This document shows positions 3,560 to 38,206 of a stretch of 64,000 nt of DNA, one piece after another. Numbering within the stretch: position 1 is the stretch's first letter; each line of letters starts with the position of its first letter. The notes under the pieces are model-generated. The model was given only the letters and a program-made list of their open reading frames with translations. It was not told the origin of the DNA and ran no database searches. The DNA lies in NCBI RefSeq assembly GCF_019285515.1, contig NZ_CP079095.1:186001-250000 (forward strand). Reading direction: 5' to 3'. The DNA comes from Methylococcus sp. Mc7. Its GTDB lineage: Bacteria > Pseudomonadota > Gammaproteobacteria > Methylococcales > Methylococcaceae. The position numbers and the translations under genes are program-made.

Positions 3560-3606
3560 TTTTGCCGATAACAAACCGGGACGGATTGCCGAAGGAGCAC
3601 ACCCCA

Positions 3607-6197: not shown

Positions 6198-6216
6198 CCC
6201 GCGTGGCAACCCGCGC

Positions 6217-7544: not shown

Positions 7545-7548
7545 CGCC

Positions 7549-10570: not shown

Positions 10571-10632
10571 CCGAAAGACTGCGGACAATGAAAGATCCAT
10601 GGAATGATACAGCCACGCCCTACCATATCTAG

Positions 10633-12272: not shown

Positions 12273-12276
12273 CTAG

Positions 12277-13266: not shown

Positions 13267-13291
13267 TGGCGTACCAGTTAAGTAAATGCTA

Positions 13292-14347: not shown

Positions 14348-14387
14348 ATCTATCTCACCCTACTATGAAAGGAACCGCTGAAATCAT

Positions 14388-14783
14388 CTATTGGCCGGCA
14401 CCGCCGGCTTCTTCCCAGTCGCCACGCTCCCATAGGAGCGTCTTGCCGAAGCGGGTGACAGTCAGCTTGCCGCCTTCTGTGATGAAGTACTTGTCATCAC
14501 CATCCGCGAACTCGTAACCGACGACGCGATCGCAATTTTTGTCCCCTTCTTCACATGGAGCCATTATTTTTTTACCTTTCAGTGTCTTCGACTTTCCCGT
14601 CGTCCGGTTTTCGACCACGAACGTCAAATCGTTGCAATCAATGCCACAGTCCGAATTGATGTCAATATTATAGCTCGGGGTATCCAGCGAGTCTACCAAA
14701 ATCGCCGAGAACGCACTCTTTCCACCGGACGCGCATCCCGATAACAATACTGTTCCCAGAACAAATAAAAAAGTCTTTTTCAT
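14388..14783 (-). CDS. Small lipoprotein of the phosphate cluster
   Basis: 131 aa. Lipobox LLSGC at residues 13-17 after a short basic-hydrophobic leader predicts a lipidated envelope protein. The mature part has four cysteines (CGIDCND and CEEGDKNC), which could form disulfides, and the pattern of short beta strands suggests a small beta domain. No family recognised. It lies between an OprO/P-like porin gene and a PstS-like gene on the same strand, so a role in phosphate capture is inferred only from position. An AAGAGG ribosome site precedes the ATG. Confidence 0.75.
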   Translation of the reverse strand: MKKTFLFVLGTVLLSGCASGGKSAFSAILVDSLDTPSYNIDINSDCGIDCNDLTFVVENRTTGKSKTLKGKKIMAPCEEGDKNCDRVVGYEFADGDDKYFITEGGKLTVTRFGKTLLWERGDWEEAGGAGQ

Positions 14784-14928
14784 GCCAACCTCTTACAAAT
14801 TCAAGACAGCTCCGCAGCAGCTCGCCAACGACTGCGTAACAAAATTAGACGAGCACGACCTTGGAATGAAAGCAAATACTTACGACGCATGCTTTTGAGT
14901 AATTCGGCCACTGCCCAGAGAATAGGCC

Positions 14929-16560
14929 TTACCAGTCCATCCAGATACCGCTCATAAACACGTCGTTATTCGCGCCATTCAAACTGTACAAGCCCGCGGG
15001 TGCGTTCTTGTTCTGATCCAGACCGAATATATGGACGTAATTGTTCATCCACTTGACCCGCGGGTTAATATACCAGTTGAGTGCGAGCGTGCCGATCTGG
15101 CCGCGGCCACCGTTAATGTGTTCGCTGTTCATGTCGAGGTAGTCCCAGCGATAGGCGATTTCCCAGGCACCCCAACTCTGACCGCTGAAGTCGAAATTAG
15201 CTTTTGGCACCACACGTCCGAAGGCGCCGCGTTTCTTGTCGTAAGGTCTACTTTCCCCAGTAAGGAAGAAGCTACCGAAAGTATAATAACCTTGCAAAAG
15301 ATCGTTGGAACCGTAGCCATCACCGGAGATTTGGGTCCGAAAATATTCGCCCTGCAGCGAAAATGGCCCATAAACGCCAGCCAATTCCGCGTTTATTCGG
15401 GTAAAGTGGTCTAATATCTTGCCGTTCTTGGGATCAGTCAGATTACCTGTGCTCCAGAAGCTGCTCCGATCAACGCTGGTGTCAGGCTGGGAGCCGAAAC
15501 TCATTCCACCATTACGGAGATTCGGAACACCTTGTGCGTAGGTAATATTGTTATTCGGCGTACGATAACCGAGCGACACACCAGTGTGGAGAATTTCATC
15601 GTGAGAGAACTCAAGCGGCAGGTACGTCAAACGACCTGTGACTCCATATCCCGTATTACCGGCATAGTTATTACGATTGCTATTACCGCTAGTAGTCGAA
15701 TTATTTGGATTACCAGGCCCGACCGGCTCGGTCTGGAAAGCCAAACGACCGGTCCAGGCCTTTTCGAACAAGTTACCTCGACCATCAACTTCGGCACCGA
15801 TCAGATAGGGGTTGGCGAATTCGACGAAGGCATTGTTGGGCAGCGACCGTTCCATGAACGTGGTGTAGCGATTGCTGGTGACCGACTCGAGACTGAACGG
15901 CTCCTTGAACTGACCGAATACGATTTCGACTGGTTCAAGCGCTTTCACCTTGAGAAAAGCGTCAGTGATGCCTGTCGACGTGACTCCGCTGCCACGAACA
16001 AAGTCGTATTCGAATCGCCACTCATAATCCTTGTAAAAGGTGCCTTCCGTAAAAATTCGAGCGCGCCGGAAGGTGGTGCCGTCATTAAGTCGGTATGGGG
16101 TCGCCTCAAGCGATTCAAAATTATTCTGATGCCAGTTGACCTGCGACGCCAACTGTAAGCGTCCCCCCATGGAGGCTTTGAAGTTGCCATCGGCCGATTC
16201 GATTTCCAGACCTTTATCGCCACTCAGGAACACTTTCGCCTGACCTTTTTCCTTCTTGGATTCCGTTGATGCAACTTTGGCGGCTTCCGCCTGGGCCTTG
16301 GCAATCTCAGCTTTCTGCTGATCCAGCTTTTTGGACAGCTCCTCAAGTTCGCTCTTCTTCCGCGCTAGCTTGGAGTCGGTCTCATCCACCTGCTCGAAGG
16401 TCCCCATTCGTATCCGGCCCGGACCGGGCTCCGCGTAGATCTGCTTGGTCTTCTTGTCCATGTACAGCTCGATCGCGGCGTGGGCCGGCAGCGCCAGCAC
16501 TCCGCCCATCAGAGCCGTCACGCTCACACGCAACAGATTGGATTTCATGTCGTTACTCAT
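14929..16560 (-). CDS. OprO/OprP-like phosphate-selective porin
   Basis: 543 aa. Signal peptide ends at ALPAHA. A coiled-coil stretch (about residues 60-100, KLARKKSELEELSKKLDQQK) precedes a barrel that begins LQLASQVNWHQN and contains the OprO/P-type segment EIVFGQFKEPFSLESVTSNR followed by FMERSLPN. The chain ends WMDW, an aromatic terminus typical of porins. It would let phosphate or polyphosphate through the outer membrane. Start could be 16560 or the Met at 16548. Lower GC than the neighbourhood. A possible Pho box lies 74 bp upstream. Confidence 0.9.
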   Translation of the reverse strand: MSNDMKSNLLRVSVTALMGGVLALPAHAAIELYMDKKTKQIYAEPGPGRIRMGTFEQVDETDSKLARKKSELEELSKKLDQQKAEIAKAQAEAAKVASTESKKEKGQAKVFLSGDKGLEIESADGNFKASMGGRLQLASQVNWHQNNFESLEATPYRLNDGTTFRRARIFTEGTFYKDYEWRFEYDFVRGSGVTSTGITDAFLKVKALEPVEIVFGQFKEPFSLESVTSNRYTTFMERSLPNNAFVEFANPYLIGAEVDGRGNLFEKAWTGRLAFQTEPVGPGNPNNSTTSGNSNRNNYAGNTGYGVTGRLTYLPLEFSHDEILHTGVSLGYRTPNNNITYAQGVPNLRNGGMSFGSQPDTSVDRSSFWSTGNLTDPKNGKILDHFTRINAELAGVYGPFSLQGEYFRTQISGDGYGSNDLLQGYYTFGSFFLTGESRPYDKKRGAFGRVVPKANFDFSGQSWGAWEIAYRWDYLDMNSEHINGGRGQIGTLALNWYINPRVKWMNNYVHIFGLDQNKNAPAGLYSLNGANNDVFMSGIWMDW

Positions 16561-25201: not shown

Positions 25202-26493
25202 GGCGTCGTCCGCAAATAAGTTGAACATTACGCTGATTCATGCTAGATGGAAGGCATGGATGCGAAAGCGGAACAGGCGATTCAGCAGAAGTATGGGGTG
25301 CTGAGTGAGATTCTTGATGAGCGAGGTCGTCGCTTGTGGGCTGCGGTGGAAGCCGGTCAGCTGGGACGAGGGGGTGTGGCGACGGTCGCCCGGGCGACAG
25401 GGCTGTCGCGCACGACGATTTATCAGGGATTGGAAGAGTTGGCACAGCGCTCGGGACCGGGGTTTTTCCGGCAGGAGCGAACGCGAGCGCCGGGTGGAGG
25501 CCGCAAACGATTGGCGGCGAAGGATCCGCAGGTATTGGAAAGCTTGGAACGGCTGGTCGATCCGGTGACACGGGGAGACCCGATGTCCCCGTTGCGATGG
25601 ACGCTCAAGAGTACCCGGCAACTCGCGGACGTACTGACCCGTCAAGGGCACCCGATCGGGCGACAAAAGGTGTCGGAATTGCTCGGTGAATTGGGGTACA
25701 GCCTGCAAGCCAATCGCAAGATGCGCGAAGGCCGGGATCACGCGGATCGCGATGCGCAGTTTGAGTACATCAACCAGCAGGTCATGGCGTATCAGCTGCG
25801 CGGTCAACCGGTCATCTCTGTTGATACCAAGAAGAAGGAGTTGGTGGGCGACTTCAAGAATGGTGGTCGGGAATGGCAGCCCCAAGGACAACCGGAAGTG
25901 GTGCGGACCCATGATTTCATTGATCGTGAACTGGGCAAGGTCAACCCGTACGGGGTGTACGATCCCACGCTGAATGCCGGATGGGTGAGTATCGGCACCG
26001 ATCATGACACCGCCGAATTCGCCGTGGAGAGCATTCGCCGCTGGTGGCTCAAAATGGGCGGGCTCGCCTATCCCACCGCCAGCCAATTACTGATCACAGC
26101 GGATGGAGGTGGCAGCAATGGCTATCGTGTGCGTCTCTGGAAGGTCGCTTTGCAGCGCTTGGCCGATGAGATTGGATTAACGCTTCACGTCTGCCACCTT
26201 CCGCCCGGAACGAGTAAATGGAACAAGATCGAGCATCGCATGTTCTCTTACATCAGTCTGAATTGGCGTGGCAAGCCACTGATCAGTCATGAAGTCATCG
26301 TCAATCTAATCGGCAGTACAACCAATCGCAAAGGCTTACGCATCCGCGCCGAATTGGACACCGCTAGCTACCCGACCGGCCTCAAGGTTACCGACGAAGA
26401 ACTCGGCAAGGTCAATTTAACTCCGGATTCATTTCACGGCGAATGGAACTACACCGTTGCCCCATTTTGTTCAAGTTAATTCCGGACAACGCC
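25202..26493 (+). mobile_element. ISAzo13-type insertion sequence, copy A (intact)
   Basis: 1292 bp. The left end GGCGTCGTCCGCAAATAAG and the inverted right end (GGCGTTGTCCGGAATTAAC when reversed) match at most positions over about 27 bp. The flanks are CAA on the left and TAA on the right, a near-match to the 3-bp TAA duplication of copy B at 60.4 kb. One uninterrupted transposase gene lies inside. It sits at the left boundary of the lower-GC copper cluster. Confidence 0.85.
25247..26479 (+). CDS. ISAzo13-family transposase (full length)
   Basis: 410 aa. An N-terminal helix-turn-helix (GVATVARATGLSRTTIYQGL) precedes the DDE domain: Asp in VISVDTKKKELVG, Asp in LITADGGGSNG, Glu in GTSKWNKIEHRMFSYI. 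The frame is open throughout, unlike the broken relative at 60.4-61.6 kb, so it could act in trans only if it recognised the rather different ends of that copy. The gene fills the element almost from end to end. Confidence 0.92.
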   Translation: MEGMDAKAEQAIQQKYGVLSEILDERGRRLWAAVEAGQLGRGGVATVARATGLSRTTIYQGLEELAQRSGPGFFRQERTRAPGGGRKRLAAKDPQVLESLERLVDPVTRGDPMSPLRWTLKSTRQLADVLTRQGHPIGRQKVSELLGELGYSLQANRKMREGRDHADRDAQFEYINQQVMAYQLRGQPVISVDTKKKELVGDFKNGGREWQPQGQPEVVRTHDFIDRELGKVNPYGVYDPTLNAGWVSIGTDHDTAEFAVESIRRWWLKMGGLAYPTASQLLITADGGGSNGYRVRLWKVALQRLADEIGLTLHVCHLPPGTSKWNKIEHRMFSYISLNWRGKPLISHEVIVNLIGSTTNRKGLRIRAELDTASYPTGLKVTDEELGKVNLTPDSFHGEWNYTVAPFCSS

Positions 26494-26644: not shown

Positions 26645-27952
26645 GTGAATTCATCGAACATCGATCCCCTCCATCCGCCTGCAGGAGACCGCGGCACAAA
26701 AACCGGTCTCGGCGGTGTCCTGAAGGAGGTAGGGGCGGTTTTCCTCGCCTTGTCGGGGATCGGGCTGATCCTTTGGTTCGACAGCCATGTCCTGAATCAG
26801 ATGGACATGCCCAAACTCAGCCGGGACGCGAGTTATGGGCTGCTCCTCTTCGTAGGCTTTCTGACCGGGTTCCACTGCGTCGGGATGTGCGGACCGCTGG
26901 TCGTTGGGTATACGGCGAAATATGCATCCAGGGGCACCAAATCCTACGGCTCCCACCTCCTTTACGGGTTGGGCAAAACCATTTCGTACACGCTCATCGG
27001 AGGCCTGTTCGGCGCATTCGGCTCGATCTTCGCCTTCACCCCTTTTACCCAGGGGGTGGTCGGCATCGCGGCCGGCGTTTTCCTGATCCTGTTCGGGTTG
27101 CACATGCTGGAAGTATTTCCGGCACTGCACCACTTCCATATCAAAGCGCCCGTTTTTCTCATGCGGTTCGTCGGCAAGGAGTATCGGAAGCACCACAACC
27201 CCTTCGTGATAGGCCTCTTGAACGGGCTCATGATCATCTGCGGTCCGCTCCAGGCCATATATATCATGGCCGCCGGCACTGGAAGCTGGTCCGAAGGAGC
27301 GGCCATCTTGTTCTTTTTCGCCCTCGGCACACTGCCGCTACTGCTCGGCTTCGGATTCTTGACCAGCCTGGTCTCCGCCAACCTGACACCCAAAATCCTG
27401 AGAGCCTCTGGTGTCATCGTCGTGATATTGGGATCGATCATGCTAAACAGGGGACTAGCGGTTGCGGGTTCCGGTTTCGATTTCAACACCCTGCTCGCGC
27501 GCCTGTCCCAGGAGTTTTCGCCCGCGGTGGTAGAACCCGAGCCCAATGCTACCGAACGGACGATCACCATGGATGTGATCGCCGGAAAATTCGTACCCAA
27601 CCGTTTCACCCTGCGCAAAGGTGTACCGGTGAAATGGGTGATCAACGGCAAGGAGCTGAACGAGTGCAATCGGGTGATCGTCGTGCCCGAATATGGGCTC
27701 GAGATCAAATTGCACCAGGGAACACAGACCATAGAATTCACTCCGGAGGAACCTGGCGTAGTGCCTTGGAGCTGCTGGATGGGAATGATGCCGGGGACTT
27801 TCATTGTCGTTGACACTCCCCAGGGTCCGGAAGCGACAACCCCGCCTCCTACCACAGATATCACGGAATGGGTGAAATCGGTTGCTGGCGATTTGCGAAA
27901 CCGCGTGATCCAGAGGACCAGGGAATTGCAGGACTGGCTGCAGTCGCTCTGA
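26645..27952 (+). CDS. UreH-like (TauE/DsbD-type) membrane protein fused to a cupredoxin domain
   Basis: 435 aa, GTG start. A membrane helix about 29-48 precedes a six-helix UreH_2/DsbD-like domain (about 65-285) with the signature GFLTGFHCVGMCGPLVVGYT; paired Cys in HCVGMC and MIICGPLQ lie in membrane segments. The C-terminal about 305-395 is a cupredoxin-type beta domain (MDVIAGKFVPNRFTLRKG), whose Cys in ELNECNRV and the WSCWMGMMPG motif are likely copper ligands. The tail is amphipathic. It probably moves copper (or electrons) across the inner membrane and hands it to the periplasmic domain. First gene of the co-directional cluster; about 150 bp from the IS. Confidence 0.8.
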   Translation: MNSSNIDPLHPPAGDRGTKTGLGGVLKEVGAVFLALSGIGLILWFDSHVLNQMDMPKLSRDASYGLLLFVGFLTGFHCVGMCGPLVVGYTAKYASRGTKSYGSHLLYGLGKTISYTLIGGLFGAFGSIFAFTPFTQGVVGIAAGVFLILFGLHMLEVFPALHHFHIKAPVFLMRFVGKEYRKHHNPFVIGLLNGLMIICGPLQAIYIMAAGTGSWSEGAAILFFFALGTLPLLLGFGFLTSLVSANLTPKILRASGVIVVILGSIMLNRGLAVAGSGFDFNTLLARLSQEFSPAVVEPEPNATERTITMDVIAGKFVPNRFTLRKGVPVKWVINGKELNECNRVIVVPEYGLEIKLHQGTQTIEFTPEEPGVVPWSCWMGMMPGTFIVVDTPQGPEATTPPPTTDITEWVKSVAGDLRNRVIQRTRELQDWLQSL

Positions 27953-28263
27953 ATCGGATGACCGCCTCCGAGCATTGCCCTCGAGCTTACGAAGCCCGGT
28001 ATGAGTCTATTGACACAGGGCCACAGTTATTTCACACACGATACCTCAACCTCAGAGCGCGTCGCCGGACGGCTCGTCTTCATCTCGTTGATTCCATGAG
28101 GGTCCATCAGAAAGGACCGATATTTGCAGGCCGGCATGTAGCGCATTCCTCCCCGCCGGTAAAGTTGCTGCCGGCGGGCGGACAGCAGGGATCGAACATG
28201 GGGCGCAGGATCCGCTGACGGCCGAGGATTCCATCGCCTCCAATGAGCAGCAGCGAGACTCTT
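27953..28263. other. Gap inside the copper cluster, no supported gene
   Basis: About 310 bp. A minus-strand frame with two CxxC-like spots (28107-28319) and a plus-strand frame exist but have no family resemblance or ribosome site. Likely holds a second promoter for the ABC-NosL genes, though no strong sigma-70 match is evident. Confidence 0.45.
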
Positions 28264-28563
28264 ATGAGAAAGTCATCCAAGCTCCTTCTGGTCGTAAGTG
28301 CACAGCTTGTGGTCTGCATGCTGCTCTGGGCCCACAGTTCGCTGAGCCGTTTTTATTCGCAGGAACGTCTGGCAGAGAAACGGGCGCTGGTTGGACGCCT
28401 CATGCTCACGGATATAGCGCTGTTCACGGAAGCGCGCTACACCCGGCATTTGACGCAGGCCGATTTGAACACCCCCTTCCAGGATTTCCCGATGGCACTC
28501 GAACATTTTCCGTCGGGCTCGTTCGTTCAGCCTGGCCCCGACCAATTCCGGCGACTGCCATAA
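28264..28563 (+). CDS. Small membrane-anchored protein preceding the ABC permease
   Basis: 99 aa from the ATG at 28264 (an in-frame ATG at 28243 adds seven). A basic start MRKSSK and one hydrophobic segment (LLLVVSAQLVVCMLLW) predict an anchored or secreted protein with a short helical periplasmic part ending TPFQDFPMALEHFPSGSF. No known domain. It is 4 bp before the permease gene, so co-translated with it. The proline/aromatic tail looks like a constrained, functional sequence rather than a chance frame. Confidence 0.6.
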   Translation: MRKSSKLLLVVSAQLVVCMLLWAHSSLSRFYSQERLAEKRALVGRLMLTDIALFTEARYTRHLTQADLNTPFQDFPMALEHFPSGSFVQPGPDQFRRLP

Positions 28564-28567
28564 CCCT

Positions 28568-29821
28568 ATGCGCGACTTGATCGAGAAACAACGCTATATC
28601 ATCGACTTCACCCTATCGTCGCTGCTGCGACGCAAAGTAAAAAACTTCGGCCTTTGGCTGCTTTACATGCTGGTCGTGTTTCTGCTGGCCTCGGTGATGT
28701 TCTTTACCCATGCCATCAAAAAAGAGGCCGTTGACATTCTCAGCCACTCCCCAGAAATCATCGTGCAGCGCCTTATGGCCGGCCGCCACGCCCTCTTTCC
28801 TGTCGGATACCTCGACACATTGAAGAACATCCGAGGCGTCGAGGCAGTCGGCACCCGGCTGTGGGGGTACTACTACGACGCAAGTAGTGGCGCCAATTAC
28901 ACCTTGCTGGTTCCACCTGAGCAGCCCTTGAACGAAAACCGCTCCGGCCGGAAAAGCCGGGTGGTCGCAGTCGAAGAAGATCCGAAGGCGCGCCACGAGG
29001 ACCATCGTCCGTTATTTTCGATGGAAGGCGTCACCCTCGAAGCCGGCAGCGTCATCGTAGGCAACGGCGTCGCCCGGGTCCGGCAGACGGCTCCGGGTGA
29101 ATTCATAACGTTCCGGGCATACGACGGCACGCTCATGAACCTCAAGATCGCTGGGCTGCTGAGTTCAAGCTCGGAACTGGTCTCCACCGATCTGATACTG
29201 ATCACCGAGAACGATTTCAGGAGACTGTTCGGCATGCCGGAGGACCTCGTGACCGACGCGGTGGTGTCGGTCACCAACCCGGAGGAGGTGACGACGGTCT
29301 CCACGAAGATCACCAAACTGCTTCCGGATAGCCGGCCGATCATCCGCGACGAGATTCGCCGTACCTACGACTCCATCTTCAACTGGCGCGGCGGCATGAT
29401 GATCGTGATCCTCTCGTCGGCGGTATTCGCCTTCGTGATCTTCGCTTGGGACAAAGCCTCAGGCCTGAGTGCCGGCGAGAAACGGGAGATCGGCATCCTC
29501 AAGGCGATTGGCTGGGAAACCTCCGACATCATTCTAATGAAGTTCTGGGAAGGAGCCGTGATCTCCCTGACCGCATTTTTCACCGGTGTGATTCTGGCTT
29601 ACATCCATGTGTTTTTCACTGCGGCGATGTTGTTCGAGCCGGCGCTCAAGGGTTGGTCTACGCTCTATCCTGCCTTCAAACCGGTGCCTTATGTCAGTGC
29701 CGAGCAACTGATTGTGCTGTTTTTCCTCACGGTGGTCCCTTACACGATGGCGACGGTCGTCCCCTCCTGGCGGGCGGCGACCATCGATCCGGACACGGCG
29801 ATGCGGCAAACGGGGGAGTGA
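28568..29821 (+). CDS. ABC transporter permease, MacB/FtsX type
   Basis: 417 aa. Membrane helix at about 28-48, a long periplasmic domain (about 50-270) and three C-terminal helices (about 276-295, 330-355, 380-400) form the FtsX layout. The coupling segment SAGEKREIGILKAIGWETSDI is the family's cytoplasmic motif. Exporters or mechanotransmitters of this type act on periplasmic substrates or lipoproteins. Coupled with the next gene (ATPase, 3 bp away). The context with NosL proteins recalls NosFY, but this permease is of the FtsX rather than the NosY type. Confidence 0.88.
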   Translation: MRDLIEKQRYIIDFTLSSLLRRKVKNFGLWLLYMLVVFLLASVMFFTHAIKKEAVDILSHSPEIIVQRLMAGRHALFPVGYLDTLKNIRGVEAVGTRLWGYYYDASSGANYTLLVPPEQPLNENRSGRKSRVVAVEEDPKARHEDHRPLFSMEGVTLEAGSVIVGNGVARVRQTAPGEFITFRAYDGTLMNLKIAGLLSSSSELVSTDLILITENDFRRLFGMPEDLVTDAVVSVTNPEEVTTVSTKITKLLPDSRPIIRDEIRRTYDSIFNWRGGMMIVILSSAVFAFVIFAWDKASGLSAGEKREIGILKAIGWETSDIILMKFWEGAVISLTAFFTGVILAYIHVFFTAAMLFEPALKGWSTLYPAFKPVPYVSAEQLIVLFFLTVVPYTMATVVPSWRAATIDPDTAMRQTGE

Positions 29822-29824
29822 GCG

Positions 29825-30496
29825 ATGATCGAACTGGTCAATGTGCGGAAAGTGTTCAACGCCGGCAAGCCCAGCGAGTACTCGGCGCTGAACGGCATCA
29901 GCCTGAACATCGAGGAGAACAAGGTTACGGTGCTGACCGGACCCAGCGGGTCCGGAAAAACGACGCTGCTCAGCATCATCGGCTGCATGTCGAGACCCAC
30001 CGCGGGGCGCGTCAAAATGAAGGGGCGCGAGATCACCAGCCTGCCCGAACGTTTTTTGACCGATGTTAGACGCCGCAGTTTCGGCTTCATATTTCAACAG
30101 CATAACCTGATCCATGGCATCACCGCGCTGGAAAACGTGATGTTGCCGGCCTATCCCTTGGGGGAACGTCGATCCAAGCTGATCGAGCGGGCTACGCGCT
30201 ATCTCGGACAACTCGATCTGCAGGACAAGGCATCGTCCCAGATCGAATGGCTATCGGGCGGTGAAGCTCAACGGGTTGGCATCGTGCGGGCGCTCATCAA
30301 CAACCCGGCGACCATCATTGCCGACGAACCGACCGCGCATCTGGATACCAAGCTGTCGCACCGATTCATGGAAATTGTCGAGCGATTCAAGGCCGAAGGG
30401 CGGACCGTCCTGATCACCAGCCACGATCCCCTGGTGTATCAAGCATCCGCGGTGGACCGGGTCATCAAGCTCAGGGATGGGCTCATCGAGGACTAA
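29825..30496 (+). CDS. ABC transporter ATP-binding protein, LolD/MacB type
   Basis: 223 aa. Walker A GPSGSGKTT, Q-loop FIFQQHNLI, signature LSGGEAQRVGIVRALINNP, Walker B TIIADEPTAHLD and H-loop TSHDP are all intact. It belongs to the small-ATPase group that pairs with FtsX-type permeases (LolD, FtsE, MacB). It energises the preceding permease. Followed after 3 bp by a polytopic membrane protein that may be a third subunit. Confidence 0.92.
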   Translation: MIELVNVRKVFNAGKPSEYSALNGISLNIEENKVTVLTGPSGSGKTTLLSIIGCMSRPTAGRVKMKGREITSLPERFLTDVRRRSFGFIFQQHNLIHGITALENVMLPAYPLGERRSKLIERATRYLGQLDLQDKASSQIEWLSGGEAQRVGIVRALINNPATIIADEPTAHLDTKLSHRFMEIVERFKAEGRTVLITSHDPLVYQASAVDRVIKLRDGLIED

Positions 30497-30499
30497 TCC

Positions 30500-31498
30500 A
30501 TGTTGCTCTTGCATCCCGGTGTCATCGCCAATCTGCTCGCCTCGCTGATCATCTCCACGATGGTGCTGTATTCCTCCTATTACGGCCTGCAGATCTTGCG
30601 GAACTGGGACATCGAGAGCGGCAGCGAGTTGCAGCTGGTACTTGAACGAAAGACCTACCTGGTGTCGACCATCCTGTCCTACGTGTTTGCACTACAACTG
30701 CTCTCGCTGTTCATGTATGTGTTCACCGCCGATAACCTGCATCCTTTGTTCGTCGGCGCGATGTGTGCTGCCGGGACGCTGAATCTGAACGCATTCGGCT
30801 ACCCGACGCTGTTGCTCAAAATGCTCAATTTCATTCTGGCCGGGCTGTGGCTGATTCTGAACCATACCGACAATCAAGGTTACGACTACCCCTTGATCAA
30901 GAAGAAATACGCCTTGCTGGCCATGATTGCCCCCTTGATCCTTATCGAGACCTTATTGGAATTCTCCTATTTTCTGAACCTTCGCGCCGATGTGATTACC
31001 TCATGCTGCGGGAGCCTGTTTAGCAGCGAACAAGGCCAGGGGCTCGGTTCGGACATGGCCGCGCTGCCGCCGGGGCCGATGCTCTGGTTCTTTTACGGGG
31101 CAGTTCTCATCACGCTGGGCTCGGGGTTTTACTACTACCGGAAAGGTAGGGGCGGCTACTTCTATTCGTTCGCCTCCATCGTGTTGTTTCTGACATCGAT
31201 CGTCTCGATCATCTCTTTCATCTCGCTGTATATCTACGAATTGCCGACACACCACTGCCCTTTCTGCATCGTGATGCCTGAATACGATTACATCGGCTAT
31301 CTCTTGTATATCGCCTTGTTCATCGCAGTGGTGGCGGGAACTGGCATAGCGACGCTGATTCCCTTGCGGGGAATCGAGAGTCTGCGGGAGGTCATCCCCG
31401 CGTTGACGCGCAAATTGACGCTGACTTCGCTGGTCCTCTTTTTCGGTTTTGCGTCCGCTGTGACATACCGGATTGCAATCTCCAATTTGATCATGTGA
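30500..31498 (+). CDS. Polytopic membrane protein with paired cysteines, family not recognised
   Basis: 332 aa, about eight hydrophobic segments across the chain. Two cysteine sites face the same side by simple topology: TSCCGSLF (about 170-177) and THHCPFCIVMPEYD (about 251-264). The latter, with two His and a CPFC pair, looks suited to metal binding or thiol exchange. A Tyr-rich loop separates them. I know no characterised homologue. It is locked between the ABC ATPase (3 bp) and NosL (start 12 bp after its stop), so it probably belongs to the same complex. Confidence 0.7.
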   Translation: MLLLHPGVIANLLASLIISTMVLYSSYYGLQILRNWDIESGSELQLVLERKTYLVSTILSYVFALQLLSLFMYVFTADNLHPLFVGAMCAAGTLNLNAFGYPTLLLKMLNFILAGLWLILNHTDNQGYDYPLIKKKYALLAMIAPLILIETLLEFSYFLNLRADVITSCCGSLFSSEQGQGLGSDMAALPPGPMLWFFYGAVLITLGSGFYYYRKGRGGYFYSFASIVLFLTSIVSIISFISLYIYELPTHHCPFCIVMPEYDYIGYLLYIALFIAVVAGTGIATLIPLRGIESLREVIPALTRKLTLTSLVLFFGFASAVTYRIAISNLIM

Positions 31499-31509
31499 AG
31501 GGTGAGGTT

Positions 31510-32028
31510 ATGGGCGGAATCACTCGGCGTCATTGTTTCAAGCGGTTAATGACTATTGCGATCGCCGGCTTATCGGCCCTGCAGTCCGCTCGACGCGCTT
31601 TCGCGGAGATAGCGGGAGTGCCGGTACTGAAGAAAACGGACCGCTGTCCGGTATGCGGAATGTTCGTCTACAAATATCCGAAATGGGTGGCACAGATTGT
31701 CTTCAAGGATGGTTCGTCCTATTTCTACGATGGCGCCAAGGACATGTTCAAGCATTATTTTGATGTTGCCAAATACACTCCAGGCAAATCAGCTGCCGAT
31801 ATCACACACATGTATGTCACGGACTATTATGAAGTCGAATTGATCGAAGCCAAAACGGCCTATTACGTCCTGGGATCGAATGTCCTGGGTCCGATGGGCC
31901 ATGAGCTGTTGCCGTTCAAGGATCAGGAATCGGCCCAGGAATTCCTGGAGGATCACCGTGGAAAATCGATTGTACGATTCCACGAGGTGACTCTACCGTT
32001 GGTCATGTCTTTGGATCGGCGGATCTGA
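31510..32028 (+). CDS. NosL-family copper-binding protein with Tat-like leader
   Basis: 172 aa from the ATG at 31510 (GGTGAGG ribosome site; a GTG at 31495 overlaps the previous stop). The leader TRRHCFKRLMTIAIAGLSAL has a twin-arginine-like motif. The mature part has the NosL signature DRCPVCGMFVYKYPKW and the repeated alpha-beta units ending with YYVLGSNVLGPMGHELLPF. NosL binds Cu(I) and serves in nitrous oxide reductase maturation; no nos genes are visible here, so it is likely repurposed for another copper enzyme. A lipobox Cys is not evident. Confidence 0.85.
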   Translation: MGGITRRHCFKRLMTIAIAGLSALQSARRAFAEIAGVPVLKKTDRCPVCGMFVYKYPKWVAQIVFKDGSSYFYDGAKDMFKHYFDVAKYTPGKSAADITHMYVTDYYEVELIEAKTAYYVLGSNVLGPMGHELLPFKDQESAQEFLEDHRGKSIVRFHEVTLPLVMSLDRRI

Positions 32029-32029
32029 G

Positions 32030-32572
32030 ATGCCGGATATGGAAGGTTGCCGAACCATGCCGCGTATGTGCTTCCCCTTGGCCTGCTTTCTGGCGTTCGC
32101 CCTTTCGGGCTGCCATCAGAGCGCTGGAATTCGCCTCGGCGGGGAACTCCCCCCGGTGACGCTTTCCGATGTCCACGGCAAGACGATAGATCTCCCGGCC
32201 GACATCAAGGGCAAAGTTGCCCTGGTCCGGTTTTGGTCAATTTCCTGTCCATTGTGTTGCAAGGAATTGCTGAAAGCGATTGAAGAGATTTATCAGAAGT
32301 ACAAGGACCGCGGCTTTATCGCGGTAACCATTAATGTTGACCCACCGCCAGCAAGCGACGAGGAGTTCCGCAAGCTGCAATTCGTACATTACCCATTCCT
32401 GATTGATCCCGGTTGGGCCGCGGCCAAAAGTCTCGGCATCAAGAGTGTTCCAATAACGCTCATACTCGATGAGCAAGGTATTGTTCGGGAAAAAATCAGT
32501 GGCGACGCGCCACCCGAATTCTTCGAACAATTGGTTACGAGAGTTTTATACAAAGGGGGATTTTATGATTAA
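32030..32572 (+). CDS. TlpA-like thioredoxin-fold lipoprotein
   Basis: 180 aa. The N-terminal leader ends in a lipobox (ALSGC), so it is membrane-anchored in the periplasm. The AlkhP/TlpA-type domain contains SISCPLCCKELLKAIEE, an active-site CPLC followed by an extra Cys, and a cis-Pro loop GIKSVPITLILDEQG. Such proteins reduce cysteines of copper chaperones or of apocytochromes. It starts 1 bp after the NosL gene and overlaps the NosL-barrel gene by 8 bp. Confidence 0.87.
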   Translation: MPDMEGCRTMPRMCFPLACFLAFALSGCHQSAGIRLGGELPPVTLSDVHGKTIDLPADIKGKVALVRFWSISCPLCCKELLKAIEEIYQKYKDRGFIAVTINVDPPPASDEEFRKLQFVHYPFLIDPGWAAAKSLGIKSVPITLILDEQGIVREKISGDAPPEFFEQLVTRVLYKGGFYD

Positions 32573-34070
32573 GAAGCCCAGTGTCAGCAAGCTAATTTTT
32601 GTGGTTTCATTGCATCTGGTCTTTTTACCTGATTTGGCGTTGGCAGAAGTCGATCGGCACGGAGTCGATTTGAAAAAGCAAACCTGCCGGGTTTGCGGCA
32701 TGAATATCGAGGAATATAAGCGGACGGCAGGGAGGCTCGTATACAAGGACGGCAGCTATGAATACACCTGTGGCGTGGCATGTACTTTCCGGATCATCGA
32801 CGAAGAGGGAGGCATTGGTGCGTTCCAATCCGTTACCGTGCATGACTGGAACACCGGTAAGGAAATCGATGCTACCCAGGCGACCTACGTGGTCGGCAGC
32901 GAAGTGATTCCGGATATGATTCCAAACTACATCGCCTTCGAGACCCGTGAAGCGGCCGAGAAATTTGCTGCGGAGCGGGGCGGGGACATCATGGACTTCA
33001 ACTTGGTATTCGAGGACAGCTCGCCGCGAGGCAACACGGTCCCATTCCGTGTCCGCACGGCCGTGACTCCGGGGCGCAACGCGTTCAGTGCCGGCGTGAC
33101 CTACGGATACACCCAGAAGGATCAGGTGAAGATGCACGAAAGCGGTGTCGATCCGAGCAGCTTCATCGCCCGAAATCCCTCCCAGCCCCGCACGCCGAAC
33201 GAGCTGCAAATACAGACTCAGGCCCTGGTGTTCAACTGGTCACCGACCGACCGCATGGCGCTCTTCATGAACCTGCCTTGGTCCGAAAGGCAGGTGACGG
33301 GGTACCAAAGGCAGGTAATCCGGAATCCGAAGACCGGCATGCCGATGAAGGATCCAGTCACGGGAATTACCAAGACCAAAATCATGGACACCACCTCGAA
33401 CGCCAACGGCATCGGCGACATTGCCTTAGAGATGCGTTACAACCTGTGGCGCAGCAGCCATTTCGACAAATGGTTTACGACGCTCGTCGGTACCACGCTG
33501 CCGACAGGAAACTTCAATGACCTGAGAAAGCGCGACTTGGTCACCGGCAACCAGATTGTCGCTCAGGCGCCGGGCATGCAGTTAGGCAAGGGTACCGCGA
33601 CGTTTTACGGCGGCTTGATTTATTCGCAGCGCTGGGAGGATTTTTGGTTCCATGGCAACTTGTTTTACCAGGCGAACCCTGAAAACAACGATCACTATTC
33701 CTACGGCGATGTCTCGACCGCGGCGATCGGTCTGCACTACACGCCGAGCTACGATTTGGTTCTCGGTGTAGAAATGGACGCGATCTATACGGACAAGAAC
33801 CAGGACGGACGAGTCCGGATCGGCAACACCGGCGGTACCGAGGCGAATGTCGCAGCGGTCTTCGACTACCGTATGTTCAACGCCGGTGGGGGGTTTTTCA
33901 GCATCCGCGGTGCGGCTGGCTTGCCTTTCTATCAAGACCTGAACTATCAGGATATCCGGAGCCCTCTGGGCGGTCCGGCGAGACAGGTGCAACTGGGCGA
34001 AGGCTTCTTTGCGAACATAGCCATCACTTGGCAGACACGTTTCGCTCCTGAAGATCAAGTTCACTATTGA
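32565..34070 (+). CDS. NosL domain fused to an outer-membrane beta-barrel
   Basis: 501 aa from the ATG at 32565, preceded by AAGGGGGA; an earlier in-frame ATG at 32469 lies inside the previous gene. Signal peptide to about residue 27 (LPDLALA). Residues about 35-175 form a NosL domain with CRVCGMNIEEYKRT and a second site YTCGVACTF. From about 185 to the end, long alternating strands and an even run of aromatic girdles (AGVTYGYTQK, TPNELQIQTQALVFNWSP, GTATFYGGLIYSQRW, FFANIAITWQTRF) look like an outer-membrane barrel of the MetA/transporter type. A copper-binding plug on a pore would be an unusual design. Not a known named protein. Confidence 0.8.
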   Translation: MIKKPSVSKLIFVVSLHLVFLPDLALAEVDRHGVDLKKQTCRVCGMNIEEYKRTAGRLVYKDGSYEYTCGVACTFRIIDEEGGIGAFQSVTVHDWNTGKEIDATQATYVVGSEVIPDMIPNYIAFETREAAEKFAAERGGDIMDFNLVFEDSSPRGNTVPFRVRTAVTPGRNAFSAGVTYGYTQKDQVKMHESGVDPSSFIARNPSQPRTPNELQIQTQALVFNWSPTDRMALFMNLPWSERQVTGYQRQVIRNPKTGMPMKDPVTGITKTKIMDTTSNANGIGDIALEMRYNLWRSSHFDKWFTTLVGTTLPTGNFNDLRKRDLVTGNQIVAQAPGMQLGKGTATFYGGLIYSQRWEDFWFHGNLFYQANPENNDHYSYGDVSTAAIGLHYTPSYDLVLGVEMDAIYTDKNQDGRVRIGNTGGTEANVAAVFDYRMFNAGGGFFSIRGAAGLPFYQDLNYQDIRSPLGGPARQVQLGEGFFANIAITWQTRFAPEDQVHY

Positions 34071-34248
34071 AACCTCGCTAAAAGGCCGCAAGCCAAGAAT
34101 GGTTTGCGGCCGGACACTCGCCAGTACGCTACAACAACTTCGCAAGTCGAACCGTTTGGCTCAAGTCGGCTTCCATTTTTCGATAACTTTCGGCAAAAAC
34201 CTTTTTCCATTGCAAGCTTAATCCGTATCGTTTCCAGGAAAATCACCG

Positions 34249-34740
34249 TTGACCATTCTCTTCCGAACATTTTTTTCTATTATTGCTATGGTCCTCTTGA
34301 ATATGCCGCTTGATGCGGCTTACACCGCTACTTTGCCCTTGGGTCCGGACAGTTTTCACGAGATTATGGGCCGTCATCAAAGATCGTCATTCGTGCTTGT
34401 GCTTTGGTCCGTCGAATGCCCACCATGCATAACGGAACTCGGTGTCCTGGCCGCGGCACTGAACCAACATCCAGGTATCAACTTGGTGATGATATCCACC
34501 GACGAGGCCGATTTACTGCCCAAGGTCGAAGCATTGCTCCAGAAACACGGCCTTCAGCATGTCGAATCCTGGATATTCGGAACTGGCGACTCACGCCGTC
34601 TGCGCAATCAAATCGACATCAATTGGTATGGGGAATTGCCGCGGAGCTATTTCTACGATGCGCAAGGCGGTCGCATGCCCTTGACCGGGGGGATTACGGC
34701 GGAACTCATAAACGCTTGGCTAGCAAGGAATCAGCACTGA
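34249..34740 (+). CDS. Exported thioredoxin-fold protein with ECPPC active site
   Basis: 163 aa, TTG start behind AGGAAA. The leader (FFSIIAMVLLNMPLDAA) looks cleavable. The core FVLVLWSVECPPCITELGVL is the thioredoxin beta-alpha unit with a CPPC pair, and LPRSYFYDAQGG carries the cis-Pro loop. A periplasmic thiol reductant or copper chaperone like TlpA/Sco is likely. It is 178 bp after the NosL-barrel gene and is the last gene of the cluster; the convergent feoC follows. Confidence 0.8.
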   Translation: MTILFRTFFSIIAMVLLNMPLDAAYTATLPLGPDSFHEIMGRHQRSSFVLVLWSVECPPCITELGVLAAALNQHPGINLVMISTDEADLLPKVEALLQKHGLQHVESWIFGTGDSRRLRNQIDINWYGELPRSYFYDAQGGRMPLTGGITAELINAWLARNQH

Positions 34741-34853: not shown

Positions 34854-35093
34854 TCATACGTCCTGCGTTTGCCTCTGCCGGTCGAGCCACTGAAAAATTT
34901 GCAATCGTTCGTTGCAAGGGCTGCGACAGGCTTGGCATTGGCCCGCCACATCGAATCGCGCGACCTTGCCCTTGCGCACCCAATGCTCAAGCAGCGCACG
35001 GGCCGTTTCCGGGGGAATATCGAAATGCGCGGCGACCTCGGTGACGCACACCCCTCGGTGCGTGATCAGATACTCTTTGAGCTCAGTCAGCAT
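34854..35093 (-). CDS. feoC: FeoC-like small winged-helix protein
   Basis: 79 aa. A winged-helix start LTELKEYLITHRGVCVTEVA is followed by a cysteine cluster GQCQACRSPC (Cys 53, 56, 60), the FeoC pattern that may hold an Fe-S cluster or iron. It is the last gene of the feo operon; its start overlaps the feoAB stop by one base. FeoC modulates FeoB stability or activity, or iron-responsive transcription, in other gammaproteobacteria. Confidence 0.85.
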   Translation of the reverse strand: MLTELKEYLITHRGVCVTEVAAHFDIPPETARALLEHWVRKGKVARFDVAGQCQACRSPCNERLQIFQWLDRQRQTQDV

Positions 35094-37621
35094 CAGGCTT
35101 CGGCGGTCCGGTCGCTGGCCGGTTTACGCCGGGTCCGCATCCCGAGATAGGCGCTCAGGGCGCCTAAGAGCAGGAAATACATCACGATGCTCACGATCCA
35201 AGCAGTCGATGCATAAGGGTGCAGGACAAACGTCCCGATCTGATAGAACAGCACGGCCGCGCCATAGCCGAGGCTGATCGTCCAAAACACCATCCAGGCC
35301 GTCCACCGCTGGTTGGTCTCGCGCGCGGTCGCCGCCGTGGTTGCGATGCACGGATAGCACAGCAGCAAGAGGAGATAGGCGAGCGCGCCGGCCTGCCCGT
35401 CGAACCGGCTTGCCAACGCGGGCGCGAGACTGCTGTGAACGCCTTTGACTTGTGCCTGACCGAGCCCCAACAGGGCCTTCAGATTTTGCGGGACGGTCAG
35501 AGCCGCCCGCTTGAGCCTTTCCAGAAGATCGAAGCCCGGCTCCGCCGCCGGCGGGGCGTGCTCCTCTAAGTAGATCGCCTCGAGGGTGCTCACGATCACG
35601 ACCTTATGCAGCACTCCGGTCAAGAGGGCGACCGTGGCCGGCCACTGGTCTTCCCGCACGCCCATCGGAGCCAGGACCGGGGTAATCGCCCGCCCGCCCG
35701 CCGCGAGCAGCGAGTGGTCGATGGGCTGCTGGTTGAACGAGCCGTCGCTCCCCCAGGCGCTCAACACCTTCACGACGAGCACCAGCGGGATGATGAACTT
35801 GCCCACTCGAAACACGAAGACCTTGACACGCAGCCAGGCATTGATCAGCACATTCCTTGGCTTGGGCCAGCGGTAGGACGGCAACTCCATCACGTACACC
35901 GACCGCTCCTGGGGGAGCAGGCTGTGTCTCATGAACAGCGCGGTGATCATCGCGAAGACGATGCCGAGGAGATAGAAACCGAAGACCACGAGGTGCCCCT
36001 GCTCCGGGAAAAAGGCCGCGGCGAACACCGTGTACACCGCCAAGCGCCCGCCGCAGCTCATGAACGGGCTCATCAGCACGGCCACGATCCGATCCCGGGG
36101 GTGATCCAAGGTGCGCGTCGCCATGATGGCGGGCACGTTGCACCCGAAGCCGAGCACCATGGGCACGAAGGCGTTTCCCGGGAGACCCAGGGCACGCATG
36201 AGCCGGTCCATGACGAAGTTGGCCCGGGCCATGTAGCCCGACTCCTCGAGGATAGAAATGAAGAGATAAAGGAACCCGATGATGGGAATGAAATTGATCA
36301 CCTGGAGAATGCCGTTACCGACCCCGTCGGCCAAGAGGACGGTGATCCACGTGGGGGCGTAGAGCGCCCCGAGGAGGTGTCGGAAGCCTTCGACGAAGAG
36401 TGTGTCGGAAAGCTGGATGAAAAACGGCTTGAAAGCACGGCCGAGTTGAATCGTCAGAAAGAACAGGCCATACATGACTCCGAGGAAGACGGGAATACCG
36501 AGGAGCCGATTCAGCACCACCCCGTCGATCCGCTCGGACACGCTGGGACCCGCCGCGGCGCGTCTGGCCAACACTTCGCCGGCGAATGCGTGGATGAAAC
36601 GGTAGCGGCTGTCGGCGATGAGAATGTCGGTTTCCTCGCCCGTCGCCTGCGCAATCCGGCTCGCCTGCTGCCTCTGAGCTTCTTTCACCGCAGAGCCGAC
36701 TTGGCGAGCCGCGAAGATATCGCCTTCCAGCAAACGGACGGCCAGCCAGCGCTCGTCGAAGCGAGGCGTCCCCGATGCTTCGCGGATCGAGCGTGTGAGT
36801 TCCGAAACGGCCGCTTCAATCGGCGGCGGGTAGTCGAGGGTGAAGTCGGGACGCAGTCGTTCCCGGGCCAACCGCTGAAGCTCGGCCTTGAGTCCCTCGA
36901 CCTCTCGCCGCCGGGTGGCGACTGCCGCCATGACCGGGCAGCCCAGCCGATTCCCGATGGCTTCGACATCGAACTCCGCGTCGCGGCCCTGGGCCTCTGC
37001 CATGATGTTAAGGACCACGACCAGCGGTACCCTCATCTCCAACAACTGGGTCGTCAGATAGAGGTTATGCTCGAGATGGGAAGTGTCGACGATATTGACA
37101 ATAAGGTCGGCTTCGCCGGAGAGGATATAGTCTCGCGCAATCCTTTCATCGATGGCGGTGGCCTCGTCGTACGCATCGAGGGAATAAATCCCCGGCAGAT
37201 CCACGACGCGAAAGTCTTGTTCTCCAAGCCGAAACAGCCCGACCTTCTTCTCCACCGTGACGCCGGCCCAGTTGCCCACCCGCTGCCTGGCCCCGGTCAG
37301 GCCGTTGAACAAGGTGCTCTTGCCGCAGTTCGGGTTGCCGATGATCGCGATCGTAAGGGGATCGTTTCGATCGACGGCCGGCTCGGCGCCGACGCGCTCG
37401 ATCAACAGGGCCGACGCCTCGTCATTGCGCAGGCTGAGGGAGGTATCGCGCACGCGAATCTCGACCGGGTCACCGAGCGGAGCCACCCGCACGACGGCGA
37501 ATACGGTGCCCGGCGTGAGACCCATGGATAGCAATTTTTGGCGATGGCCGATATCGCCGCGCTTGAAGCCCTTGACCCGTCCACGCTCACCGACTTTAAG
37601 ATCGCCGAATGCAATGGTCAT
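35093..37621 (-). CDS. feoB: Fused FeoA-FeoB ferrous iron transporter
   Basis: 842 aa from the ATG at 37621 (GAGGT ribosome site; a GTG at 37639 would add six). Residues 1-77 are a FeoA SH3-like domain; residues about 89-250 are the FeoB G domain: G1 GNPNCGKST (95-103), G2/G3 region with DLPGIYSLDA, and the FeoB transmembrane core with GFGCNVPAIMATRTLDHP and MSPFMSCGGRL. The C-terminal cysteine CYPCIATTAATARETNQRW lies in the late core. The G4 site reads NIMA at 205-208 where NxxD is expected, so guanine specificity may be lost. FeoAB fusions are known but uncommon. Fe2+ import through the inner membrane. Confidence 0.93.
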   Translation of the reverse strand: MTIAFGDLKVGERGRVKGFKRGDIGHRQKLLSMGLTPGTVFAVVRVAPLGDPVEIRVRDTSLSLRNDEASALLIERVGAEPAVDRNDPLTIAIIGNPNCGKSTLFNGLTGARQRVGNWAGVTVEKKVGLFRLGEQDFRVVDLPGIYSLDAYDEATAIDERIARDYILSGEADLIVNIVDTSHLEHNLYLTTQLLEMRVPLVVVLNIMAEAQGRDAEFDVEAIGNRLGCPVMAAVATRRREVEGLKAELQRLARERLRPDFTLDYPPPIEAAVSELTRSIREASGTPRFDERWLAVRLLEGDIFAARQVGSAVKEAQRQQASRIAQATGEETDILIADSRYRFIHAFAGEVLARRAAAGPSVSERIDGVVLNRLLGIPVFLGVMYGLFFLTIQLGRAFKPFFIQLSDTLFVEGFRHLLGALYAPTWITVLLADGVGNGILQVINFIPIIGFLYLFISILEESGYMARANFVMDRLMRALGLPGNAFVPMVLGFGCNVPAIMATRTLDHPRDRIVAVLMSPFMSCGGRLAVYTVFAAAFFPEQGHLVVFGFYLLGIVFAMITALFMRHSLLPQERSVYVMELPSYRWPKPRNVLINAWLRVKVFVFRVGKFIIPLVLVVKVLSAWGSDGSFNQQPIDHSLLAAGGRAITPVLAPMGVREDQWPATVALLTGVLHKVVIVSTLEAIYLEEHAPPAAEPGFDLLERLKRAALTVPQNLKALLGLGQAQVKGVHSSLAPALASRFDGQAGALAYLLLLLCYPCIATTAATARETNQRWTAWMVFWTISLGYGAAVLFYQIGTFVLHPYASTAWIVSIVMYFLLLGALSAYLGMRTRRKPASDRTAEA

Positions 37622-37640
37622 CGTTGCAACCTCATGCACC

Positions 37641-37766
37641 CTATTTCTGACGCGTACCGTTCATGCCATGCATCTGGTGCACGGCGCCATGCGGATGTCC
37701 CGGTATGGCATCGGGGCCATGATCGGCCAGCTGGGCATCGAACCACTGGTGGATGGCCGTAATCAA
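37641..37766 (-). CDS. Possible 41-aa His/Met-containing ORF, or displaced C-terminus of the Met-rich protein
   Basis: Minus-strand frame starting TTG, overlapping the stop of the Met-rich gene (TTGA), and ending 19 bp before feoAB. Its sequence reads ITAIHQWFDAQLADHG then PGHPHGAVHQMHGMNG: strong GC3 bias and nonrandom residues. The same frame is open further upstream (EKGLQEDPG), so one missing A in the short A-tract near 37790 could have split one longer gene. Either a coupled small protein or a frameshift product. Confidence 0.4.
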   Translation of the reverse strand: MITAIHQWFDAQLADHGPDAIPGHPHGAVHQMHGMNGTRQK

Positions 37767-38206
37767 ACCCGGGTCCTCTTGAAGCCCTTTCTCTTTTCCG
37801 CGGCCCGATTAGCCGCCTCAATGATCTCTTCACGGTATTTGTGGATCAGGTATCCGATCGCCAGGCCCGCACCGAACACGACTAGCGGGTGCGTCAACAG
37901 CCTGCCGAACAGCGACCGGCCCGCAGCGGAGGATGCGGTCACGACAGCTCCAGTGGCGACTCCGCTCGTGATGGCGCCGGGGCTCATCATGGTCCCCATG
38001 CCCATCCCGGAACCCACCATTCCGCCCATACCCATGCCCGCGCCGTGCTCCATCATCCCACCCATCCCCGGGCCCATCATGACGCCCATTCCCGCTCCAT
38101 GTTCCATCATGCCACCCATCCCGGACTCCATCATCATCGGACAGGTCGCTTCTTCCGCGATCTTCTTCGCTGCGTCGACCATCTTGTCGCCATGTACGTG
38201 TGCCAT
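37763..38206 (-). CDS. Met/Gly-rich membrane protein next to feoAB
   Basis: 147 aa, ATG at 38206 behind CAGGAGA. Residues about 28-78 are Met/Gly-rich with a tandem 18-residue period (GMGGMMEHGAGMG occurs twice), including His; Met and His side chains bind Cu(I) or other soft metals. A hydrophobic helix (about 108-123, HPLVVFGAGLAIGYLIHKY) is followed by a charged helix. The DNA shows the repeat as well (about 37990-38120). No known function; its position 5' of feoAB suggests the same transcript. The C-terminus KGFKRTRV may be abnormal (see the overlapping ORF). Confidence 0.75.
   Translation of the reverse strand: MAHVHGDKMVDAAKKIAEEATCPMMMESGMGGMMEHGAGMGVMMGPGMGGMMEHGAGMGMGGMVGSGMGMGTMMSPGAITSGVATGAVVTASSAAGRSLFGRLLTHPLVVFGAGLAIGYLIHKYREEIIEAANRAAEKRKGFKRTRV

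Follow-up and report, generated by a model that had tools for sequence, protein, structure and literature searches.

NosL is usually treated as an accessory protein of the nitrous oxide reductase NosZ. NosL was found mostly in betaproteobacteria with NosZ (PMC6769254), and the Cys and Met of its CXM motif are given as the likely Cu(I) ligands (PMC6530538). The nearest published remark on another arrangement concerns Parageobacillus, in which NosDFY and NosL occur without NosZ at the locus and another copper recipient was proposed (PMC13068155). The stretch of 64,000 nucleotides from Methylococcus sp. Mc7 analysed here (NZ_CP079095.1, positions 186,001 to 250,000), hereafter called the window, contains a cluster in which two NosL proteins are tied to another machine, consisting of an FtsX/MacB-type permease, an ATP-binding cassette (ABC) ATPase and two proteins of no known family, hereafter called MEM332 and SMALL. 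Full-text searches of open-licence papers, subscription journals not included, found no description of this cassette. With chances judged to be about even, the cassette encodes an envelope-located ABC machine that handles Cu(I) in an accessory role, probably serving copper tolerance at low oxygen.

Nine open reading frames (ORFs), all on the + strand, span positions 26645-34740 of the window, and their domain assignments were checked against Pfam and NCBIfam. Genes 2-8 (28243-34070) are tightly packed, with spacings of -8 to +4 nt, whereas gaps of 290 nt and 178 nt separate gene 1 from gene 2 and gene 8 from gene 9, respectively. An earlier, sequence-only reading of the window had described nine co-directional genes with short spacings as one system; the common strand and the domains were confirmed for all nine, the short spacing for genes 2-8 and not for genes 1 and 9. 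A scan of species genomes with the MEM332 profile gave at least 557 relatives, the best 80 loci of which were kept, so that close relatives and metagenome-assembled genomes (MAGs) are over-represented. Together with nine gammaproteobacterial loci these make up the 89 loci compared (one of the loci, L035, is a 5.4 kb contig and possibly misbinned). In this neighbourhood search around the 332-aa protein, which the same reading had proposed, the ABC ATPase, FtsX permease, SMALL and NosL recurred beside MEM332 across phyla, forming a conserved core that extends from methanotrophs to Nitrospirota and deltaproteobacteria. Among the loci, 76 have 2.5 kb or more of upstream sequence, and in these tblastn placed the ATPase on the strand of MEM332 in 76, the permease in 73 and SMALL in 72; the permease and SMALL are nearby on the opposite strand in L057 and L068 according to ORF clustering, both are absent from L056, and SMALL is absent from L015. 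NosL was found within 6 kb in 48 of the 54 loci with 4.5 kb flanks (not in L015, L056, L082, L084, L092 and L095). Gene 9 was matched in none of the 89 loci (tblastn, E 1e-3) and is therefore placed outside the conserved cassette, which removes it from the single system that had been proposed. Judged by their recurrence in these sequences, genes 2-8 are one conserved unit and not a chance grouping.

The same association is seen closer to the window genome. Of 369 genomes of the class, 10 contain MEM332, this genome among them, and the permease and ATPase adjoin it in all nine other loci. A survey of 201 genomes of the order gave 19 MEM332 matches, one of which (G505; 20 bits, partial, with one stop) was excluded. 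NosL was present in all 18 remaining genomes and in 3 of the 183 genomes without MEM332 (Fisher p 6.5e-23, without correction for kinship). The three genomes with NosL and without MEM332 are G472, with a different NosL adjoining a distant ABC, G386, with a marginal NosL match, and G484. The last contains a remnant of the cassette (locus L106, G484:C1:44000-62000, 10152-12527) in which NosL and TlpA remain together with a NosL-barrel gene that is disrupted by a stop or a change of frame, and from which FtsX, ATPase and MEM332 are absent. At another locus, L017, two transposase-like frames of 412 aa, alike at both ends, lie between MEM332 and the TlpA/NosL half (10180-12732).

MEM332 (30500-31498, + strand) is a polytopic membrane protein of 332 aa. 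The protein of the window had no Pfam match up to E 0.1 and no NCBIfam match up to E 0.01. Its 59 relatives gave scattered weak Pfam matches, most commonly to DUF3262 (6 members, best E 0.0058), and a best NCBIfam match of E 0.015. The profile found no PDB sequence up to E 1, and the best PDB match with Foldseek had an E-value of 0.13; the top Foldseek rows were alignments with G protein-coupled receptors at a root mean square deviation (rmsd) of about 20 or more and were rejected as noise. Structure comparison with VIA gave Z-scores up to 13.6 (rmsd 3.8, 138 residues), to helical bundles in the uninformative range. The predicted model (predicted local distance difference test, pLDDT, 88.5; predicted template modelling score, pTM, 0.88) has eight long helices, with residues 171-180 poorly modelled, and Lys/Arg counts put loops 1-2, 3-4, 5-6 and 7-8 inside. 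In the alignment of 59 rows, representing 58 of the 80 loci and the window, M88, C89, C169, C170, H251 and C253 are invariant and H252 (58/59) and C256 (54/59) nearly so. According to the model and the charge counts, all the conserved Cys, His and Met residues are in three predicted periplasmic loops, loop 4-5 being the one whose side is least certain (2.0 Lys/Arg on average). Loci in which the last Cys of HHCPFC is replaced, giving HHCPFD, are L053, L056, L058, L071 and L099, which do not form one clade.

SMALL (28243-28563, + strand), of 106 aa with an N-terminal membrane anchor, had no Pfam or NCBIfam match, and its 43 relatives gave stray Pfam matches, in one member each (best E 0.017). 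In an alignment of 43 rows (42 of the 50 listed small-protein frames and the window) its conserved tail reads TEARYTRH..AD....FQD.P...EHFPSG, with the conservation centred on TEARYTRH and FPSG. On the evidence of these profile searches, MEM332 and SMALL are two protein families unnamed in the libraries searched.

The permease (28568-29821, + strand, 417 aa) is of the FtsX/MacB type (PF02687, 33.5 bits, cut-off 25.5) and is followed by the ABC ATPase (29825-30496, + strand; PF00005, ABC_tran), in which the motifs are complete, Walker A and LSGG having been located by regular expression and Walker B (IIADEPT) by eye. The pair has what characterizes the type VII (MacB/LolC/FtsX) ABC systems, an FtsX fold of four helices and a periplasmic domain combined with a complete ATPase. 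Scores with the Lol equivalog models were below the cut-offs (LolC/E 46.7 of 362.45; LolD 180.5 of 307.75). The permease model (pLDDT 81.5) resembles LolE, LolC, MacB, HrtB and a MacB-like permease of S. pneumoniae, with VIA comparisons giving Z 22.5 with 5xu1_M (rmsd 4.7, 356 residues), 21.2 with LolE 9xro_E (rmsd 8.9, 356 residues) and 19.5 with HrtB 7w78_B (rmsd 5.5, 330 residues). There were 57 PDB fold matches at E <= 0.001, and the 50 listed are all Lol, MacB, HrtB, YtrF, YbbP, Bce, FtsX or the S. pneumoniae relative. Residues 120-155 constitute an insertion that is missing from more than half of the 51 aligned rows (50 of the 60 listed permease frames and the window). The window permease contains no cysteine, and its only conserved Met and His are M412 and H347, an indication that the metal is carried by MEM332 and NosL.

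The two NosL proteins of the cluster are the only NosL matches in the genome (G000), which is 4.0 Mb in one contig. Type 1 (31495-32028, + strand; PF05573, 115.1 bits, cut-off 24) has no lipobox and carries a Tat-like signal, TRRHCFKR, recognized by regular expression; C54, M56 and M134 correspond to the CXM motif and a second conserved Met. Type 2 (32565-34070, + strand; PF05573, 75.9 bits) has a CxxCGM motif, a second cysteine pair, C-x3-C, and, as its fusion partner, an outer-membrane barrel domain (PF13557, 25.6 bits, cut-off 22). The start of this gene is most likely at 32565 rather than at the ORF start, 32469. The CXM motif is kept in most of the 118 aligned NosL frames (C in 113, M in 112), as is the second Met (110). 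The cassette NosL frames comprise 69 without and 44 with the second cysteine pair, and among the 71 loci for which NosL was typed, 42 have both types. A lipobox-like motif was detected in 4 of 113 cassette NosL frames and in neither NosL of the window, an approximate count from a regular expression applied to mechanically called starts; the NosL of nos operons, unlike most of these, is described with a lipobox (PMC7558416). Type 2 frames longer than 400 aa, taken as barrel fusions, were found in the window and in 16 of the 89 loci, 15 of them in the methanotroph/Nitrospira/Nitrosomonas group and the other at L061. Further long NosL frames, e.g. of 516 and 605 aa, are present among the carriers.

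Genes 1, 7 and 9 encode the remaining proteins. Gene 1 (26645-27952, + strand, 435 aa) encodes a UreH/DsbD_2-type membrane protein (PF13386, 152 bits) fused to a cupredoxin part, Cupredoxin_1 (PF13473), whose 25.4 bits are just below the cut-off of 27 bits; 10 of the 89 loci, all from methanotrophs, contain this part. Gene 7 (32030-32572, + strand) encodes a TlpA/ResA-like protein with a CPLC motif (PF08534, Redoxin, 64.8 bits) and a lipobox, LSGC, identified by eye. Gene 9 (34249-34740, + strand) encodes a thioredoxin-fold protein with a CPPC motif and a weak match of 20.6 bits, under the cut-off.

The methanotroph host, the lower G+C content and the adjacent insertion sequence of the sequence-only reading were confirmed. 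The genome has two copies of pmoA and is therefore that of a methanotroph. The G+C content of the cluster is 55.6 %, compared with 63.4 % for the rest of the window, and of 224 sliding windows of the size of the cluster two were lower, both overlapping it. An ISAzo13-family transposase gene (25247-26479, + strand; PF07592, 469 bits) ends 165 nt upstream of gene 1. The low G+C content and a patchy distribution, with MEM332 in 18 of the 201 genomes of the order and in 0 of 5 further genomes from the genus (pmoA being present in 4 of these), fit the acquisition that had been proposed. The carriers include many unrelated, often anaerobic bacteria; culturable ones represented in the 80 loci are, for instance, Methylobacter tundripaludum OWC-G53F, Methylocaldum sp. 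14B, Geomonas silvestris and Pelotalea chapellei. In the MEM332 tree the window sequence pairs with Methylocaldum (support 99/92) within a clade of 16 rows (100/100) that includes rows from Methylomirabilis, Nitrospira and Nitrosomonas, and this mixture of taxa suggests horizontal transfer, to which misbinning of MAGs could contribute. A search of plasmids with MEM332 gave no match.

Genes associated with copper export occur near part of the cassettes. CusA homologues were found near 14 of the 89 loci, CusB near 12 and CopA near 10, and the control genes FeoB, IleS, ObgE and EmrB near 0; thresholds of 35 % identity and 30 % of the query applied to CusA and CopA as to the controls, and CusB matches were filtered by E 1e-4 only. 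Counts from ORF clustering differ slightly (CusA 17, CusB 14 and CopA 11 of 90 loci, window included). One CusA representative scored over the CusA/CzcA-family cut-off and one CopA representative over that of the copper-translocating P-type ATPases (589.5 of 397 bits).

When oxygen is low, copper is chiefly present as Cu(I), and multicopper oxidases, which depend on oxygen, do not work. If the cassette handles copper in such a setting, two permeases and two ATPases would form a MacB/HrtBA-like homodimer, (FtsX)2(ABC)2, whose ATP-driven stroke would act on the periplasm. MEM332 would bind Cu(I) through a periplasmic thiol/imidazole/thioether site composed of M88, C89, C169, C170, H251 and C253 and, driven by the stroke, pass it to the soluble NosL chaperones, while the TlpA lipoprotein and the DsbD/UreH-type protein may maintain the cysteines in reduced form. 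NosL would then release the copper to an exit, CusBA at loci where its genes adjoin the cassette and, for the methanotroph type, the outer-membrane barrel fused to the second NosL. More tentatively, and with confidence somewhat short of even, the cassettes may be regarded as a NosZ-independent, NosL-coupled class in which a MacB-type mechanotransmission ABC acts on MEM332 and on NosL of two types so that Cu(I) is moved out through the periplasm or along it, and which would have spread horizontally among methanotrophs, nitrifiers and metal or sulfate reducers as an oxygen-independent partner of Cus and CopA. If the reading as a Cu(I)-handling machine holds, the cassette is an additional ABC-type copper system that could account for the way methanotrophs and metal reducers deal with copper when oxygen is low, and the two unnamed families would gain a testable role.

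Several observations weigh against the reading as a Cu(I)-handling machine. Copper binding and transport by the cassette proteins are putative, and the best-known role of NosL is in cuproenzyme assembly, not efflux. NosL was missing within 6 kb in 6 of the 54 loci, the CusB representative scored below the CusB cut-off (158.5 of 390 bits) and over a general RND adaptor model only, and CzcA, which acts on other metals, falls under the CusA model as well. Neither CusA nor CopA was found in the part of the window compared (16001-46000), the rest of the genome not having been searched. C256 is replaced by Asp in 5 of 59 MEM332 rows, and MEM332 could be a thiol oxidoreductase. Candidate cuproenzymes are present in most carriers, the COX1 family being found in 41 of 50, and full-length NosZ is present in 5 of the 9 gammaproteobacterial carriers, 3 of them over the cut-off.

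These last counts bear on the possibility, considered rather unlikely, that the machine loads copper into a client enzyme (an oxidase, CuMMO in methanotrophs, or another), as NosL/NosDFY does for NosZ. NosL is a dedicated chaperone of CuZ assembly (PMC6530538), and the Parageobacillus locus offers a proposed precedent for a recipient other than NosZ (PMC13068155). CuMMO (PF02461) was found in 12 of the 16 carriers that belong to the methanotroph group, which comprises L032 and 15 loci from the MEM332 tree clade, and in 0 of the 34 carriers outside it; the NosL, NosZ and COX1 counts in carrier genomes refer to one set of 50 of the 80 loci and the CuMMO count to another set of 50. Within the order, pmoA is about equally frequent in genomes with MEM332 (16 of 18) and in those without it (150 of 183). 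CuMMO was thus rejected as a general client, and the earlier proposal of a copper-handling system was supported in the copper-type context (NosL, CusA, CusB and CopA) and not in its choice of particulate methane monooxygenase as the client. NosZ does not follow the cassette either. As the sequence-only reading had stated for the window, nitrous oxide reductase genes are absent and no nos operon is involved: no NosZ over the cut-off was found in the whole genome, in which two weak matches cover only the C-terminal positions 484-576 of 578. Of 50 carrier genomes, 1 has a full-length NosZ, namely that of L092, with a score under the cut-off. In neither this genome nor the five gammaproteobacterial NosZ carriers was the gene seen beside the cassette. 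In four of the five it is on another contig than the cassette, the draft state of which does not fully exclude adjacency, and in G125 the two share a contig and are separated by more than 1 Mb. The homologues therefore do not always sit with nosZ, the case in which the cluster would have been a nos accessory set; this was rejected, with the gammaproteobacteria as an exception. In the genome of L092 (G608) no NosL lies within 6 kb of the cassette and the strongest NosL is about 14 kb from the full-length NosZ on the same contig, so that NosL there may serve NosZ. Since 49 of 50 and 4 of 9 carrier genomes show no full-length NosZ, NosL alone should not be taken to indicate nitrous oxide reduction. 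COX1 was not found in 9 of 50 carriers, some of them MAGs and possibly incomplete. CusA is at the locus in 7 of these 9 (L051, L055, L059, L067, L068, L075 and L080), compared with 4 of the 41 with COX1 (L039, L082, L093 and L098), a comparison uncorrected for kinship or MAG gaps. Because the cassette is not consistently accompanied by any one enzyme, and because an efflux pump tends to lie beside it in carriers in which COX1 was not found, copper tolerance is favoured over enzyme maturation with moderate confidence.

It is improbable that MEM332 is instead a DsbB/VKOR-like membrane oxidoreductase acting on NosL and TlpA, with metal secondary, even though its periplasmic loops contain a CxxC and a vicinal CC, and TlpA, DsbD and UreH adjoin the cassette in part of the loci. 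One of the 59 MEM332 members reached the DsbB model, at E 0.074; this is not a useful E-value, no DsbB or VKOR Pfam match was obtained among the 59, and the fold search was uninformative. The replacement of C256 in five rows speaks against this function too, and disulfide exchange would presumably need no ATP-driven, MacB-type pump. Sorting or extraction of envelope proteins in the manner of LolCDE, with lipoproteins or NosL itself as the substrate, is very improbable: the permease and ATPase are near the Lol and MacB folds and models, and TlpA is a lipoprotein as predicted by eye, but the Lol scores are far under the cut-offs and just 4 of 113 cassette NosL frames have a lipobox-like motif. 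The least credible explanation is a general tolerance of soft metals such as Ag and Hg, with copper incidental. Silver is also exported by Cus pumps, and the title of a reference relates NosL structurally to MerB, whereas the representative of the linked P-type ATPases exceeds the copper-translocating cut-off by the margin given above.

Promoter and terminator scans gave numbers close to chance (5 found and 5.0 expected; 11 found and 8.6 expected), a CueR-like CCTT-N11-AAGG box was absent from the window (0.76 expected by chance), repeats around the cluster were not notable, Rfam gave no match at gathering scores and the tRNA scan found none. Downstream, on the opposite strand, are a FeoA-FeoB fusion (ferrous iron transporter, 35093-37639, - strand) and a Met-rich protein with repeated GMGGMM (37763-38206, - strand), which has no Pfam match and falls into one ORF cluster (c12) with proteins encoded next to CopA in several of the cassette's methanotroph relatives. 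A second ISAzo13-type transposase frame of 304 aa (60389-61303, - strand), without about 100 aa of the N-terminal part of the copy at 25247-26479, separates a multihaem cytochrome (58739-60385), whose resemblance to MtrC domains is below the cut-off, from a frame with c-type haem motifs recognized by eye (61635-62264). Another multihaem cytochrome (PF13447), followed by frames that by eye resemble the cytochrome c maturation proteins CcmA, CcmB and CcmC, is encoded at 3547-8280. Another stretch of low G+C content (about 50 %, 13001-16000) encodes phosphate-selective porin-like and PBP-like proteins, and the frames upstream of it (10745-13266) appear transposase-like by eye.

Compared with described systems, the cassette shares its permease fold and ATPase family with MacB, LolCDE and HrtBA, the mechanotransmission ABC systems of type VII. 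It differs from them in being below the cut-offs of the matching Lol, FtsE and MacB models and in its linkage to NosL and MEM332, and no MacA-type adaptor is present among the nine proteins. CusCBA and CopA are encoded at cassette loci in part of the family, whereas the cassette is a machine distinct from them, with an ABC stroke and NosL in addition, and neither CusA nor CopA was seen beside the window cluster. The Parageobacillus locus (PMC13068155) likewise combines NosL with an ABC unit without NosZ at the locus, and differs in being of the NosDFY type, with a lipoprotein NosL, in a Gram-positive host. Like NosL/NosDFY, the cassette pairs NosL-family chaperones, with the CXM motif kept, with a dedicated ABC ATPase and permease. 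In contrast to NosL/NosDFY, the permease is of the FtsX/MacB and not the NosY type, no NosD model was matched among the nine proteins of the cassette region, the window genome contains no NosZ, most of the NosL proteins are without a lipobox, and MEM332 and SMALL are additional. With a permease of another class, no NosD and no NosZ in the window genome, the cassette is placed outside NosDFYL; it is not a member of the NosL/NosDFY system, which it resembles in principle.

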